From positions 3,430,501-3,494,500 of the forward strand of contig CP131056.1 of NCBI GenBank assembly GCA_030657355.1: a DNA stretch of 64,000 nt. Direction: 5' to 3'. Position numbers and translations under genes: made by a program. Below, one piece after another: positions 2,200 to 8,674 of this stretch (positions are counted from its first letter, which is position 1; every line of letters starts with the position of its first letter). The notes beneath the pieces are model-generated. The model did not search any database. It worked only from the letters and a program-made list of their open reading frames with translations, and was not told the origin of the DNA. Source of the stretch: Radicibacter daui (GTDB lineage: Bacteria; Pseudomonadota; Alphaproteobacteria; Radicibacterales; Radicibacteraceae).

Positions 2200-2856
2200 A
2201 TGAGCCTCGAAATCACCCCGGAACTGCTGATCAAGGCCTATGCCATCGGCGTCTTTCCGATGGCCGAAGATGCCACCGCGACCGAGCTTTTATGGTTCGA
2301 TCCGCTGATGCGCGGCGTGCTGCCGCTGGATGGCCTGCATATTCCCCGCTCGCTCAGAAAGACGGTGCGCCAGCAGGTTTTCGATGTCTCGGTCGACCGG
2401 GATTTCGACGGGCTCATCCGCCTGTGCGCCGAAAGTGCGCCCGACCGGCCGCGCACCTGGATCAACGCCCAGATTCTCGATCTCTTCGGCACGCTGCACC
2501 GGCAGGGTTATGCCCATTCGGTGGAAGTGCGGCTGGAAGGCCAGCTGGTGGGCGGGCTTTATGGCGTCGCGCTTGGCGGGGCCTTCTATGGCGAGAGCAT
2601 GGTGAGCCGGGTGGCGGACGCCAGCAAGGTGGCGCTGGTGCATCTGGTGGCACGCCTTCGTGCCGGCGGCTTCACCCTGCTCGACACCCAGTTCGTGACC
2701 GATCACCTGAGCCGCCTCGGCGCCATCGAGATCCCGCGCGAGGAATACAAGGCCCGGCTTGCCGAGGCCCTGCGCCACCGGGCCGATTTTTACTGTGCCG
2801 GGGTCGAGGAGGAGCTGGCGTCCTTGCTCACGCAGTCGAGCACCCACACGTCATAG
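2200..2856 (+). CDS. aat: leucyl/phenylalanyl-tRNA--protein transferase
   Basis: A 218-residue cytoplasmic enzyme that transfers Leu or Phe from tRNA to proteins with N-terminal Arg or Lys, feeding the ClpS/ClpAP N-degron pathway. Family motifs are visible: YAIGVFPMAE near the N-terminus, LWFDPLMRGVLPL, and the core GLYGVALGGAFYGESM followed by SKVALVHLV. ATG 2200 begins MSLEITPELLIKAY. The 3' end overlaps the convergent DUF2155 gene by 67 bp. Confidence 0.95.
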   Translation: MSLEITPELLIKAYAIGVFPMAEDATATELLWFDPLMRGVLPLDGLHIPRSLRKTVRQQVFDVSVDRDFDGLIRLCAESAPDRPRTWINAQILDLFGTLHRQGYAHSVEVRLEGQLVGGLYGVALGGAFYGESMVSRVADASKVALVHLVARLRAGGFTLLDTQFVTDHLSRLGAIEIPREEYKARLAEALRHRADFYCAGVEEELASLLTQSSTHTS

Positions 2857-3392
2857 GTCGGCAGCTCCATCGCCGCCAGCGCGGGGGAGGAGGCGAACAT
2901 CCAGCCGCCATAGACCTGCGTCACCGGCCCGTCCGGCCGCTGGTCGCTGATCTCCAGGAAAGCCGCTGCCTCCGGCGTATCTTCCGGGGCGGACTTGCGG
3001 CAGGCGCGCACGGTAATGGTGAGCGTGCCGAACACGGTCGGCGTATCCACCGGCACCACGAGGCGCGAGACACGCGCGGTAATCTTGTCGAGCCCCTGCA
3101 GGATGGCGACGGGCATATCCGTCATCACCCGCGGCGGGGCCGCTTCCACCGGCGGCGGGGCTGGCTTGTAGGGGGCGGGGGCGCTGCCATCGGGCGCGAT
3201 AGCCGCAGGGTTCTGCAGTTCCACGTCACCGCCGGTGCCATCAGGCGAGAGCGGAGCAACGGTGGGCGGGGCATCATCCTCGGGCGCATCGGTCTGTGCC
3301 AATGCGGGGGCCGCAGCCATCAGCGCCGCGCCGAGGGCCAGCACCGCTGTGCCGCTTGCTGCCTTGCCCTGCATCAGCCTCAGGATGCTCAT
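2790..3392 (-). CDS. DUF2155 domain-containing exported protein
   Basis: About 200 residues with an N-terminal signal peptide (hydrophobic run ending APALAQ), a Pro/Ala-rich linker, and a C-terminal DUF2155 domain. Two cysteines (VRACRKS and LDCVSKD) could form a disulfide. Function is unknown. The family sits between aat and NDUFA12-type genes in alphaproteobacteria, as here. Start is uncertain: ATG 3392 (MSILRL) is preceded by a weak GAG-containing site, and ATG 3407 is an alternative. The 3' end overlaps aat. Confidence 0.85.
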   Translation of the reverse strand: MSILRLMQGKAASGTAVLALGAALMAAAPALAQTDAPEDDAPPTVAPLSPDGTGGDVELQNPAAIAPDGSAPAPYKPAPPPVEAAPPRVMTDMPVAILQGLDKITARVSRLVVPVDTPTVFGTLTITVRACRKSAPEDTPEAAAFLEISDQRPDGPVTQVYGGWMFASSPALAAMELPTYDVWVLDCVSKDASSSSTPAQ

Positions 3393-3580
3393 GCCCGTCT
3401 CGCCCATCTTTATGTCGCAGAAAATTGCCGGAAAACCAGATGCCCCGGCCGCCGGTGGGGGCCGGAACAGAAAAGGAAGGGCCGCACTCTGCTGACAAAC
3501 CATGGCGCTTTACGGGCGGCCCTTCTCCTCAATAAGCCATAACGGGGCGTGCGGGTTCCCGCAGCTTGTGCCCCATCCGG

Positions 3581-4147
3581 TCAGTTGGCCGGTGGCGTCG
3601 GCTCGTCCAGCAGGCCGCCCTTGACCGGGCCGGCCTTGCCGCCAAGGTCATCGGCGTCATTGTCCTCGCCCGCCGCGCCATCCTTGCCTTCTTCGCTATC
3701 CTTCTTGCCGGACTGCGAGAAGATGAACTGGCCGATCAGCTGCTCAAGGCCCGGGGTTGACTGGGTATATTCAAGCGTACCGCCGGAGGGGATCATCTCG
3801 CTGTCCGCACCCGGCTGCAGCGCCATGTAGCGCCCGCCGAGCAGGCTTTCGCTGGAGACGACGGCAACGGTATCGACCGGCAGCTGGATTGACGGGTCGA
3901 TCGACATATGCACCACGGCCAGATAGCTCTTGGGGTCCAGTTCCTGGCTCGTCACGCTGCCGACCTTGACGCCGGAGATGCGCACGTCGGAACCGTTATT
4001 GAGCCCGTCCACACGGTCGAACTTGCCGCTGATCTCGTACCCCGTGCTGGTGCTGAAATGGGTCGAGGAATAGGCAAAGCCCAGAAACAGCGCCGCGATC
4101 AGCAGCACCACCGCCCCGATCACCGTCTCGAACACACTGCGGCTCAT
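3581..4147 (-). CDS. mlaD: MlaD-type outer-membrane lipid asymmetry protein
   Basis: A 188-residue MCE-family protein with one N-terminal membrane helix (about residues 5-25). The MCE domain contains YEISGKFDRVDGLNNGSDVR, ISGVKVGSV and LLGGRYMALQPG, then a charged, low-complexity tail. MlaD proteins are anchored in the inner membrane, form a hexameric ring, and shuttle phospholipids with MlaFEB. No mlaE or mlaF is adjacent. In alphaproteobacteria a solitary mlaD near the NDUFA12-like gene is common. ATG 4147 has a GGAG nine bases upstream; ATG 4153 is less well placed. Confidence 0.92.
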   Translation of the reverse strand: MSRSVFETVIGAVVLLIAALFLGFAYSSTHFSTSTGYEISGKFDRVDGLNNGSDVRISGVKVGSVTSQELDPKSYLAVVHMSIDPSIQLPVDTVAVVSSESLLGGRYMALQPGADSEMIPSGGTLEYTQSTPGLEQLIGQFIFSQSGKKDSEEGKDGAAGEDNDADDLGGKAGPVKGGLLDEPTPPAN

Positions 4148-4294
4148 TGGCATCAACTCCAGAGAAAGCCCGGATCAGGCAACATCACATCAAGGCAAAA
4201 CCCCGAACGACAGGGAAGCAGGCATCAGCCGCAGGCTGTCTTTCGGGGTTTTTGAAAACGTCCGGTCACGGGGCAACCAGGCAAAGGCCGGAGC

Positions 4295-4705
4295 TTATTC
4301 CGGAACCCAGGCTTCATAATCACCGGTCGCGGCATCACGATGGCCGCCGCGATAAGCGTGGCCCGGCGGCAGATAGGCGCCTTCGGTGCCGGTCAGGTTC
4401 TGCTGCGGAGCAATCTGCCAGCTGCGGCGCAGCGGGTTGTCGGCGGCGGGAACCGTATTGGTCTGGTGATGCAGCCAGGCATGCCACTCGGGCGGCACCT
4501 TGCTGGCTTCCGGCTCGCCGGCATAGATCACCCAGCGGCCTTCCTTGTACATGCGCGCATCGAAAGCGCGCGGGGAATTGCCGCGCTTGTCGCGGAAATA
4601 GCGGTTGCCGAGGCTGTCGGTGCCCACCAGAACGCCGTAGCGGCGCGTGAAGATGTTGGTGGCGACCTGCGCAAGGCGCGAGAAGAGACTGGCTTTGTCA
4701 GACAT
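4295..4705 (-). CDS. NDUFA12-family complex I accessory subunit
   Basis: A 136-residue homologue of mitochondrial NDUFA12 (B17.2), an accessory subunit of NADH:ubiquinone oxidoreductase restricted to alphaproteobacteria and mitochondria. Typical segments are RRYGVLVGTDSLGNRYF, RWVIYAGEPEASKVPPEWHAWLHH and the Pro/Gly-rich C-terminus with LPPGHAYRGGHRDAATGDYEAW. ATG 4705 (MSDKAS) is chosen because homologues start there; the longer frame upstream is not conserved-looking. Confidence 0.93.
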   Translation of the reverse strand: MSDKASLFSRLAQVATNIFTRRYGVLVGTDSLGNRYFRDKRGNSPRAFDARMYKEGRWVIYAGEPEASKVPPEWHAWLHHQTNTVPAADNPLRRSWQIAPQQNLTGTEGAYLPPGHAYRGGHRDAATGDYEAWVPE

Positions 4706-5245
4706 CGGTCCGGTTTTCACGACCTGTGGCTTGAAGTTGCGGGCAATATGGCACCCGCATTGCCCAACGTCCAGCATCAAGCCCGCCGCAGCCCCGGGGG
4801 ACTGTGAAGGGCGCCAAAGCGCCGCGGTGCGGGCGGCCAGGAGGCGGCGATCTTCGGCCCGGCCATCGGCCAAGCCCATCAAAAACAAGAGCAAGTGCGC
4901 TGCACCATCCCGATTCTGCCCTGAATCGGCGCTTCCCTCGCCGCCACTTCCCGGAATCCGGCTTCCCGGCCGCCGAGGTTAAAAATTCCTTATCGCAGGC
5001 GACTCGTTGCACTCGCAGGGAGTCGCAGGATCAGGCCCTGTTTGGGCCCGCGCGTTCGCATTGCAGCCACTGCATCTTGTGTCAGATTGACCTGTCATCA
5101 CTATAACTATTGGCTCCTACCAGCCATAGGTTATGGCAAGCGACCAGCCCCAAGGGGCTGCCAGGGGACTGACAGAACAGTCGAGTATCGAACCGGCAGG
5201 AACCGCAGCGGGGAGCTGATTCCGGACCGGGCATTCGGGGGGCAT
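4706..5245. other. intergenic leader region before the NrdJ-like gene
   Basis: About 540 bp between two divergent genes with no convincing ORF. It contains a GCGACTC/GAGTCGC inverted repeat (4999-5005 with 5020-5026), a GCCATA/TATGGC hairpin (5123-5128 with 5132-5137) and a CAGCCCC/GGGGCTG hairpin (5145-5160). These could be part of a long 5' leader. I could not match a known riboswitch consensus. Confidence 0.4.
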
Positions 5246-5251
5246 TTGAAG

Positions 5252-8200
5252 ATGCGGATCAACCGGCATTTTACCGCCAGCAAGGGCAGCGCCTATGCGG
5301 GGATGGAATTTGTCTGCCGTATCGACACCGGCGACGATGACGGCCCGCTGAGCTTCGAGCTGCCTGCCGGCTGGAGTGGTTTTGGTGCCGAGCTGCTGGC
5401 TGGCCGCCTTGCCCTTTCCGGCGGGGTGCCCGCGCGCCGGGTGCGCCGCGACGAGGAAGGCGTGCCGGAATGGCTGCTGCCGTGGCAAGCCGATGCCGGC
5501 GCGCTGGAGAGCATGCCGGAAGAGCTGCGTTACGGCCCGGAGCTGAGCGCGGCTGCGGTTTTTGACCGTATTGCCGGCGCCTGGACCTACTGGGGCTGGA
5601 TCAGCGGCGCCTTTGCCGATGAAGAAGACGCCCTCGCTTTTCATGACGAAATCCGCTTCATGCTGGCGACCCGCCGCGTGGCGCCGGCCGCCCCGCTCTG
5701 GGTCGAGACCGGGCGCTGGTGGGCCTATGGCCTCGAGCCGGGCCATGAGGGCGTTGCCGTCTCCCCCAGTCTGCGCGGCCATAACGATCCGCGCCTGACC
5801 CGCACCGTCAGCGAGATAGTGCGCCGCTCGGGCGCACTGCCGCAGGCGCTGCTGGCCTCCCAGCTGGAAGCAACGCGCCTTGGCCTTGCCAGCGCCAGCG
5901 ACCTGTCCGGCCTGCCGCTGGATGGCCCCGGCCAGCCCGGCCTCATGCACTGGCTTGCCGCTGCCGACAGCAGCGCTGCGGCCACGCAGCCGGTCTCCGG
6001 CCTTGCTTCCGGCCCGGTGGCCGCCGGCCAGCCGCGCCACCGCGTAACCATCGCCGCCGACCATCCGTCTATCGAAAGCGTGCTCGCCTGGCAGGAGCGC
6101 GAGGAGCGCAAGGCCGCCGCGCTTGCCTGCGGCTCGCAGGTCTGCGCCCGCCATCTCAAGGCCGTCATGGCCGCGACCACCGACTATTCGCTCGGCGATC
6201 GCCGCTGCGACCCGCAGCATAATGACGATCTGGGCCGCGCCGTGCGCGCCGCGCGTGAAGCGCTGGTGCCGGATGCCTATATCGCCAAGGTGCTGGATTT
6301 CACCCGCCAGGGCTTCACCGATATCGAGTTCCCCGAATTCGATACCGAGTGGGACAGCGAGATTTACGCGACCGTCTCCGGCCGCGGCATGACGCTGACC
6401 CTGCGCCTCGATGGCCGCCTGCTCGATGCCGCCGATGCCGATGCCGAGTGGGATCTGCTGCCGCGCGGGGAAGAAGACGTCACCCCGCGCCCGGTTTCCG
6501 CCCGCGACCTGTTTGACCGGCTGGTGCTGGCGCAGTGGAGCCAGGGCGAACCGCAGCTGATGTTCGCCGATACGGTAGAAGGCTGGAACACTACTCCTGC
6601 CAGCGGTGCCATCACCACCCCGTCTGCCGATGGCGGCTCGCTGCTGCCGGGTGGCGGCGCGGCCCCTGCGGCCACACTGAACCTGACGGCCTTCCTCGAC
6701 AGCGAAGGCCGCGTCGATATTACCGACCTAGTCCATGCCGTGCGCCTGTGGGTGCTGGCGCTGGATATCGCGCTCTCCCAGTCCGCCGCGCCGGATGTGG
6801 AGACCGCCGATGCCATCGCCCAGCATCGCGCCATCCGCATCGGCTTTACCGGCCTTGCCGATGTGCTGATGGCCTATGGCGTTGCCTATGACAGCGCCGA
6901 GGGCCGGGCCCTTGCCGCCGCCATCTCCGCGATCATCACCGGCCATGCCTATGGCGCTTCGGCCGAACTGGCCGGCCGCCTTGGCGCCTTCCCGGCCTGG
7001 CGCGGCAACCGCGACGCCATGATGCGCGTCATCCGCAACCATCGCCGCGCCGCTCATGGCCACCGCGACGGTTATGAGGATCTGACGGTTGCCCCGCAGC
7101 CTTTCGAGGTCAATCGCTGCCCGGATACGGCGCTCGCCGAAGCCGCCCGCGCTATCTGGGATGCGCTGCCGGGCCTTGCCCAGCAGTCGGGCTTCCGCAA
7201 TGCCCAGGTGACCGGCATCGGCCAGGGCAGCGCCTCGCATCTGCTGCTCGGCGCCCCTTCCAGCGGCATTGACCCCGCCACCGTCCAGGTTCTGCTGGAA
7301 GCGGGCGAAGATGGCCTCACCCGTCGCCTGCACCCGGGCATCCTGCACGGCCTTGCCCATCTCGGGCATGATGAAGGCGCGCGCGAGCGTATCGCCGGCC
7401 ACGCGGCTGGCCACGGCACCCTCGCCGCCAGCCCGGCGATCGACCACGAAGCCCTGCTCTCCATCGGCATCCTCAAGGAAGATATCGAGGCGGTGGAGGA
7501 GCGGCTTGCCGAAGTGGGCGATGTGCGCCACGCCTTCGATTGCTGGACCATCAGCGAAGACAGCCTGATGCGCTGCCTCGGCTCCACCGACGATCTGATC
7601 GACGAGGAGGATGGCTCGGCCGACCTGCTGCCGATGTTCGGTTTTTCGGAAGAAGAGATCGACGCCGCCAACCTCCATGTCTACGGCACCGGGACGCTGG
7701 AAGGTGCCGAGGATCTGGTGGGGGAAGAAACGTCCATCTTCGCCACCGCCCGCCTTGGCGGCCTGATGGAAACCACCACCAGCCATGGCCATGTCGGCGC
7801 GGCAGCGATGCTGCGTATGGCGGCGGCGGTGCAGCCCTTCCTCAGTGGTGGCATCGGCGCCGTTGTCCCGCTTGCGACCCAGACGCGTTTTGCCGAGATC
7901 GAGGGGCTGACCCTGCTCGGGCACCGGCTCGGCCTCAAGTCGCTGGCGCTTTATCGCCAGGGCTGCCGCCTCAGCGAAACCCGCCTGCTGCCGCTCATCG
8001 CCCCGCAGGAGGCGGAAGAGCTGCGCGTGCAGCCGGTGCCGCAGCAGGCCGAAGCGATTGCCACCCGCATCGTGGAGAAGGTCGTCGAGCGTATCGTGCG
8101 CAAGAACGAGCGCGAGCAGCTGCCGCCACGCCGCAAGGGCTATACCCAGAAGGCCTCTGTCGGCGGCCACAAGGTCTACCTGCGCACCGGCGAATATGAA

Positions 8201-8614
8201 GATGGGCGCCTCGGTGAGATCTTCATCGACATGCACAAGGAAGGCGCCTCGTTCCGCAGCCTCATCAACAACTTCGCCGTCGCCGTCTCGCTCGGCCTGC
8301 AATATGGCGTGCCGCTTGAGGAATATGTGGAGGCCTTCTGCTTTACCCGCTTCGAGCCGGCTGGCGCGGTGCAGGGCAACGAGGCCATCAAGATGGCAAC
8401 CTCGGTGCTGGACTATGTCTTCCGCGAAGTGGCGATCAGCTATCTCGGCCGCGCCGACCTCGCCCACGCCACCCCGGCCGACCTGCTGCCCGATGCCCTT
8501 GGCACCGGCGAGGCCCAGAGCGAGCTGGACGGCATGACGCCAACGGCCGTCCCCGCCGCCGCCTCCACCGGCTATGTGCGCGGCGGCCTCAGGGTGGTGG
8601 GCGCCGAGGACTGA
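5252..8614 (+). CDS. NrdJ-family (class II ribonucleotide reductase) homologue lacking catalytic cysteines
   Basis: A 1120-residue protein collinear with adenosylcobalamin-dependent ribonucleotide reductase NrdJ. Conserved stretches include the N-terminus [43 protein letters not shown] (about 291-303), [24 protein letters not shown] and a C-terminal TSCPD domain (about 960-1085). The active site is degraded. The WNTCP segment is WNTTP (445-449). The finger-loop Asn-Pro-Cys-Ser-Glu motif is replaced by Gly/Ala/Ser/Pro-rich sequence. The N-terminal redox Cys region and GTGSN loop are gone, and the C-terminal CxxC zinc ribbon is missing. The frame is intact with normal codon use, so it is probably an expressed pseudoenzyme. 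ATG 5252 has a GGGGGG run upstream; TTG 5246 is possible. Confidence 0.85.
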
Positions 8615-8636: not shown

Positions 8637-8674
8637 AAAAGCCCCGGAGAGTTTGACCTCTCCGGGGCTTTTTT
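8637..8674. terminator. bidirectional intrinsic terminator
   Basis: AAAAGCCCCGGAGAG (8637-8651) pairs with CTCTCCGGGGCTTTT around a 6-nt loop, with A and T tracts on either side. It serves the convergent NrdJ-like and DUF3857 genes. Confidence 0.9.

Follow-up and report, generated by a model that had tools for sequence, protein, structure and literature searches.

The question and the locus

The locus considered here raises the question of why a long reading frame of the NrdJ type, that of the B12-dependent class II ribonucleotide reductases, should stay open when every residue needed for catalysis appears to have gone from it. It lies in a window of 64,000 nucleotides (the whole stretch of DNA that was analysed) from the alphaproteobacterium Radicibacter daui (contig CP131056.1, positions 3,430,501 to 3,494,500). 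An earlier note on this DNA had proposed a pseudoenzyme with a sensing or regulatory role. The reading favoured here, with a probability of roughly 0.7, is that the gene encodes a pseudo-NrdJd at the ancestral nrdJ locus, in which the core under selection would be the C-terminal TSCPD domain, a putative binding or oligomerisation module with a role independent of the reductase. The features of the locus are collected in Table 1.

Table 1. Features of the pseudo-NrdJd locus, in window coordinates.
Feature	Position	Strand	Basis
Conserved upstream neighbours aat (+), DUF2155 (-), mlaD (-), NDUFA12 (-)	2200..4894		Neighbour analysis
Pseudo-NrdJd gene, 1,120 aa	5252..8614	+	Open frame, Pfam, PDB match, alignment
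Class II N-terminal domain PF08471	5354..5671	+	Pfam, residues 37-142 of the 5246 frame
Lost N-terminal redox Cys site	5786..5806	+	Alignment with active NrdJd
Degenerate barrel, best Pfam stretch PF02867	6473..7396	+	Pfam, residues 410-717
WNTTP replacing WHTCP	6584..6598	+	Alignment
SADGGS replacing the NPCSEY finger loop	6623..6640	+	Alignment
TSCPD region, near-unchanged	8111..8473	+	Residues 956-1076 of the 5246 frame; PF12637 at 966-1061
GC-rich stem-loop and T run past the stop, terminator-like	8641..8674	+	Read from the sequence

The gene and its descent

The likely start of the gene is the ATG at 5252, which matches the conserved NrdJ start (the codon at 5246, where the frame begins, is TTG). 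From there the frame is open throughout the 1,120 codons of 5252-8611, which bears out the intact frame of 1120 residues reported before. The terminator-like stem-loop downstream was not among the listings of the consensus scan.

The protein scores above the Pfam cut-offs for Ribonuc_red_2_N (67 bits), Ribonuc_red_lgC (133 bits) and TSCPD (PF12637; 37.6 bits against a curated cut-off of 22.8). With the NCBIfam NrdJ model NF005736 it reaches 967 bits, far below the cut-off of 1737. Residues 3-912 match the R. sphaeroides enzyme 7b9p in the PDB by sequence (E 3.6e-171), and this is also the best PDB match of the AlphaFold2 (AF2) model of the whole protein, which is predicted to have the NrdJ fold (pLDDT 71.9, pTM 0.72; TM 0.82 by target length, rmsd 10.1 over 930 columns). 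The model has low confidence where the loops are lost, at its residues 164-212 and 245-261, and the TSCPD part is poorly predicted, with a pLDDT of about 27-53 from residue 910 on. The collinearity with NrdJ over the full length, as first claimed from the sequence, is thus upheld by Pfam, the 7b9p match, the alignment with NrdJd proteins and the predicted fold.

Besides the conserved neighbours of Table 1, accB and accC lie upstream of the gene (named through the plasmid annotation of similar DNA). In the flanks of 80 titled nrdJ loci, DUF2155 was found in 28, accC in 15 and mlaD in 10. Of 25 non-remnant genomes, 13 have accC no more than 9 kb away from nrdJ. The upstream block was found in none of four non-remnant genomes examined for neighbours (G028, G050, G015 and G041), G015 having weak accB/accC matches only. 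The window gene therefore occupies the ancestral position of nrdJ, which many other Alphaproteobacteria share, although the synteny is not universal. Full-length homology, fold and ancestral gene position place the protein in the NrdJd lineage by descent. A horizontally gained extra copy was considered and rejected, because the gene occupies the nrdJ locus.

The host genome (5.06 Mb, two contigs) has three matches to the barrel family: the window protein and two class I alpha subunits. The suggestion that another reductase be sought in the genome was thus borne out. One of the alpha subunits, of 611 aa, is on contig C1 (1031 bits with the PRK09102 model, cut-off 620). The other is a class Ib NrdE on contig C2 (1232 bits with TIGR04170, cut-off 750) that is followed by NrdF; the NrdEF pair on this second replicon (L142:6438-9570) is class Ib, and the chromosomal alpha subunit on C1 is of another type. 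Among these barrel-family matches, with class labels assigned in the host genome, there is neither a class II enzyme above the NCBIfam cut-off nor an NrdJa partner.

Loss of the catalytic residues

The residues of the window protein were mapped onto an alignment of 109 active NrdJd proteins. The N-terminal redox cysteine, present in 109/109 of these, falls in a gap in the window protein, and the finger cysteine, likewise present in 109/109, is replaced by Asp, the loop NPCSEY having become SADGGS. WHTCP reads WNTTP. In place of SGTG(S/T)NFS stands [14 protein letters not shown] and then QGSASH, so that the GTG(S/T)N loop is gone, and the C-terminal six-cysteine zinc/redox ribbon, which was looked for by alignment, is absent. 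All five losses listed in the earlier note (WNTTP, finger loop, N-terminal redox cysteine, GTGSN loop and CxxC ribbon) are therefore real when set against the 109 NrdJd proteins, and no alignment of Cys and Glu at the finger loop was found.

The losses are selective. None of the 12 near-invariant Cys columns (at least 98% conserved in the 109 active proteins) is kept. Before residue 950, near-invariant residues were kept in 0/6 cases for C, 2/13 for K, 3/12 for Q and 5/20 for D, as against 34/51 for G, 25/39 for A and 12/15 for W. In the aligned sequence the pattern is that of a fold kept and a chemistry lost, and the protein lacks the sequence hallmarks of an active class II reductase (finger Cys and Glu, redox Cys and ribbon). 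A sequencing error or frameshift whose correction would restore the active site is unlikely and was rejected, because the losses are scattered over the barrel in a frame that is unbroken.

Uneven conservation along the protein

The earlier note took the retained scaffold, with its B12-binding-type architecture, to be the point of interest. This emphasis finds no support, as the barrel is the eroding part of the protein and the TSCPD domain is not. All 67 near-invariant columns of the TSCPD region are kept in the window protein, against 182 of 391 elsewhere (Fisher p 2e-20, a descriptive value only, as columns share ancestry). In a second, smaller alignment, 71 of the 74 TSCPD columns with at least 96% conservation are kept. 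Over the N-terminal and barrel parts, the window protein is 26-56% identical to active NrdJd proteins, which are 60-87% identical among themselves; over the TSCPD region the corresponding values are 81% and 85%. The last value counts against a special retention, since TSCPD ranks among the best-conserved parts of active NrdJd proteins too.

The erosion of the barrel is itself uneven. Within the dead barrel, the stretch at 7016-7195 (residues 591-650 of the 5246 frame; [12 protein letters not shown]...GYE) keeps 11 of its 12 near-invariant columns, unlike its surroundings.

Remnants in other genomes

The protein had been treated as unique. However, at least 18 genomes in 10 family groups, found in a search of the Alphaproteobacteria, carry TSCPD on a dead or missing barrel. 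The search covered 385 genomes of the class, and among the matches listed 44 genomes, including the window genome, were picked by score for a closer look. TSCPD was matched in 29 of the 44. Eighteen of the 29 have remnants and five have the finger (G198, G017, G327, G098 and G268); G338, G199, G314, G381, G275 and G172, also with a TSCPD match, were left out of the remnant count. From the 15 of the 44 without a TSCPD match, G093, G016 and G070 were examined. A further 30 mid-scoring genomes were searched (one handle was given twice and three of the 44 recur), which yielded 28 new loci, 27 with the finger motif and one, in G093, with none. The high-scoring remainder was checked through the 109 aligned loci, and the count of 18 is a lower bound. 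Frames in G636 (812 aa) and G697 (923 aa) are candidates for further remnants outside that count. A list of 64 loci whose TSCPD frame has no finger was left uncounted, many of these being short-cut loci or repeats of one gene.

The remnants range from 1,120 aa (the window protein) and 1,085 aa through six of about 800-980 aa and three of about 526-667 aa to seven of about 272-278 aa, in which the barrel has been lost; one of these seven, in G321, is cut by a contig end. The finger motif is missing from all 18, so the homologues share this loss with the window protein. In two of the shortest forms, which were scanned, TSCPD is the sole Pfam match at E 0.1. Genes of the upstream block adjoin the remnant in 17 of 18 cases, and in the remaining genome, G217, the neighbours recognised are downstream genes only (RidA, FemAB). 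In G008 the last 8 nt of the stand-alone TSCPD gene are shared with the start of a RidA-like gene (L144:6573-6580), and several other genomes, too, have RidA-like matches after the TSCPD gene.

Of the 60 genomes in family group f63, 54 have a match to the remnant of G355. Among the best 30 of these 54 copies, the finger, WHTCP, PHACF, PTGTI and MDCD motifs are absent from every one. In a phylum sample of 299 genomes, all 70 matches to the stand-alone TSCPD protein fell in the same class. The stand-alone form also matches seven phage records, of which the annotated ones are named class II reductases.

Conversion to the dead state probably took place several times independently, because a tree of AccC (52 rows) requires seven changes of state, five of them forced by strongly supported branches. 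The tree is of one gene, the branches of two rows are very long, and a program warning marks the grouping of G008 and its kin with G017 as a possibly false join.

Not every lineage conforms. In G093 (L313, L315) the same locus encodes an NrdJ of 959 aa that keeps the barrel and has its finger Cys replaced, and no TSCPD was found within the 14 kb searched, the reverse of the main pattern. In f27 and in G099 the TSCPD domain has drifted, with 43-48 of 74 conserved columns. The stand-alone TSCPD protein has no match in the 12 listed, complete genomes of family group f13 (G012, G144 and G243 among them). The remnant is dispensable in some lineages, since neither these 12 nor six of the 60 f63 genomes have a match. 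A different arrangement is seen in G016 (L312), where the finger of NrdJ is intact, tandem repeats of AAQPTQEI close the frame and TSCPD is missing from it.

Selection on the TSCPD domain

Values of dN/dS were obtained by the Nei-Gojobori method; several dS values exceed 1 and the pairs are not all independent. Between remnants, dN/dS in TSCPD is 0-0.125. In all 19 pairs that could be compared it is below the value upstream, seven of seven from a first set (10 tried, three left out with a value undefined in one part) and 12 of 12 from f63. Between G008 and G240, both without a barrel, the values are 0.012 for TSCPD and 0.45 for the part upstream. In closer f63 pairs the barrel, at 0.06-0.32, is constrained but less so than TSCPD.

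The window genome is the only member of its genus, family and order in the genomes searched. Its copy was compared with that of G383, giving 0.076 for TSCPD and 0.39 upstream at a near-saturated dS of about 1.8. The dN/dS that the earlier note had wanted computed is thus low in the remnant relatives, and for the window copy it comes from this near-saturated pair. For the window copy we infer selection from the open frame and the unchanged TSCPD domain.

The C-terminal ribbon and the nature of the domain

According to the available text of Loderer et al. (2017; PMC5704485) on the NrdJd of S. nassauensis, ribbon cysteines 1, 2, 4 and 5 are the proposed zinc ligands, zinc content having fallen in three of the four corresponding variants, and cysteines 3 and 6 are the proposed redox pair. 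The same text describes the C-terminal domain as necessary if higher oligomers are to form with dATP. A ribbon is retained in six of the 18 remnants, and all six read C C x C C x, with the zinc cysteines kept and the redox pair lost. In the best 30 of the 54 f63 copies, the ribbon region has two CxxC pairs in 23 and no Cys in seven, and the six-cysteine pattern occurs in none. Judging from these cysteine patterns, electron delivery is not the retained function of the remnants, because those with a ribbon have kept the zinc cysteines and lost the redox pair, and the window copy has no ribbon.

Structure comparisons of the TSCPD region were made with a separate model (207 aa, pLDDT 85.9, pTM 0.74). 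With VIA-align all rows had Z <5, IscU coming first, xanthine dehydrogenase second and CPE2226 fourth; the top row, IscU 1q48 (Z 4.6, 4.1 Å over 101 residues), stands mixed with unrelated ones. Foldseek gave nothing at E <=0.001 with this model, and no convincing solved relative of the region was found by sequence. No column of the region has Cys in at least 80% of the 109 active NrdJd proteins, as a conserved cluster ligand would, and the window protein has a single Cys within it. The predicted similarity to IscU, SufU and CsdE is thus weak (Z <5), and the likeness rests more on Burnim et al. (2022; PMC9669993), in whose available text such C-terminal domains of class II reductases, including split NrdJb, are termed IscU-like. 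A part in oligomerisation is suggested there for the domain, and that text speaks of no role reported so far.

Three known systems come close to the remnants. The window protein resembles NrdJd (R. sphaeroides 7b9p; S. nassauensis, PMC5704485) in its collinearity over 1,120 aa, its modelled fold, its locus and its TSCPD domain, but differs from it in lacking the catalytic cysteines, the finger loop, the GTG(S/T)N loop and the zinc/redox ribbon. The NrdJb of Pseudomonas aeruginosa (PMC4520616), a separate class II C-terminal part with IscU-like and zinc domains (PMC9669993), is what the shortest remnants resemble. However, NrdJb, in the text available, exchanges thiols with NrdJa, whereas the remnants have no redox Cys pair and the window genome offers no such partner. 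The IscU-like domain as such occupies the same region, but the accessible part of PMC9669993 describes it inside reductases; here it outlives the reductase.

Competing explanations

Reuse of the reductase large-subunit fold without catalysis is seen in the inactive herpesvirus R1 proteins, which are viral and of another lineage; we know of no TSCPD domain in them. A literature search, covering titles and the starts of abstracts with subscription papers mostly outside it, found no published account of an inactive, pseudo- or truncated NrdJ, nor of an IscU-like domain retained in this way.

A simple pseudogene, decaying and with its frame open by chance, would account for the loss of all catalytic residues and for the strongly diverged barrel. 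It is very improbable, as 1,120 codons stay open at 64.5% G+C and the G+C by codon position is of the coding type, like that of accC, and it was rejected on the unchanged TSCPD domain and the low dN/dS in relatives. Still harder to credit is a new enzyme activity in which the old barrel works without cysteines: some constraint on the barrel in f63 would suit it, but the near-invariant residues that have gone are the polar, reactive ones, and seven remnants have no barrel to house such a chemistry.

The sensing proposed in the earlier note, with a barrel that still binds a nucleotide or cobalamin, is improbable, even with the fold kept in the model and the barrel constrained in the closer f63 pairs, for it is the barrel that changes faster in every comparable pair. 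What the remnants have in common cannot be a barrel that senses cobalamin, because relatives at the same locus lack any barrel. The pseudoenzyme of that proposal has stood, with the catalytic residues lost, the frame open and other reductases present, and a sensing or regulatory role for TSCPD itself is possible.

Rather unlikely, too, is a remnant that serves the resident class I reductase as an auxiliary subunit in trans, as NrdJb serves NrdJa, regulating assembly or allostery and carrying no electrons. NrdJb is indeed a known case of a class II reductase whose C-terminal part is separate (PMC4520616, in the text available). Furthermore, 18 of 18 remnant genomes carry an alpha subunit like the class I one of the window genome, judged by a two-part barrel match and length, with the class checked by NCBIfam in the window genome only. 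However, any genome without a class II enzyme needs another reductase, so that this co-occurrence says little. Nor did any physical or genetic link show up, and in the window genome the two genes lie far apart.

The favoured reading, a pseudo-NrdJd whose TSCPD domain is under selection, would have the following course. The NrdJd gene became a pseudoenzyme at its ancestral locus, with class I reductases now supplying nucleotide reduction. Selection would keep the C-terminal, IscU-like TSCPD domain, and the dead barrel would be a loosely constrained scaffold, partly or wholly discarded in other lineages. We infer that already in ordinary NrdJd the TSCPD domain may have a second, non-catalytic job, most likely that of a module for binding or oligomerisation. 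This job would probably contribute to dNTP homeostasis by way of a nucleotide or of a partner protein, and would still be needed where no B12 reductase is present.

Implications

If enzymes were lost repeatedly around an unchanged domain, the remnants amount to a natural deletion experiment that points to another job for this domain, and the stand-alone proteins of about 272-278 aa are material for finding it. Annotation based on homology may be counting dead proteins as B12-dependent reductases. For class II reductases at large, there is a reasonable case that TSCPD is a module in its own right, regulatory or binding, whose cellular function is distinct from the production of deoxyribonucleotides, and that Alphaproteobacteria switching to class I enzymes would have kept it repeatedly, on a dead body or alone.
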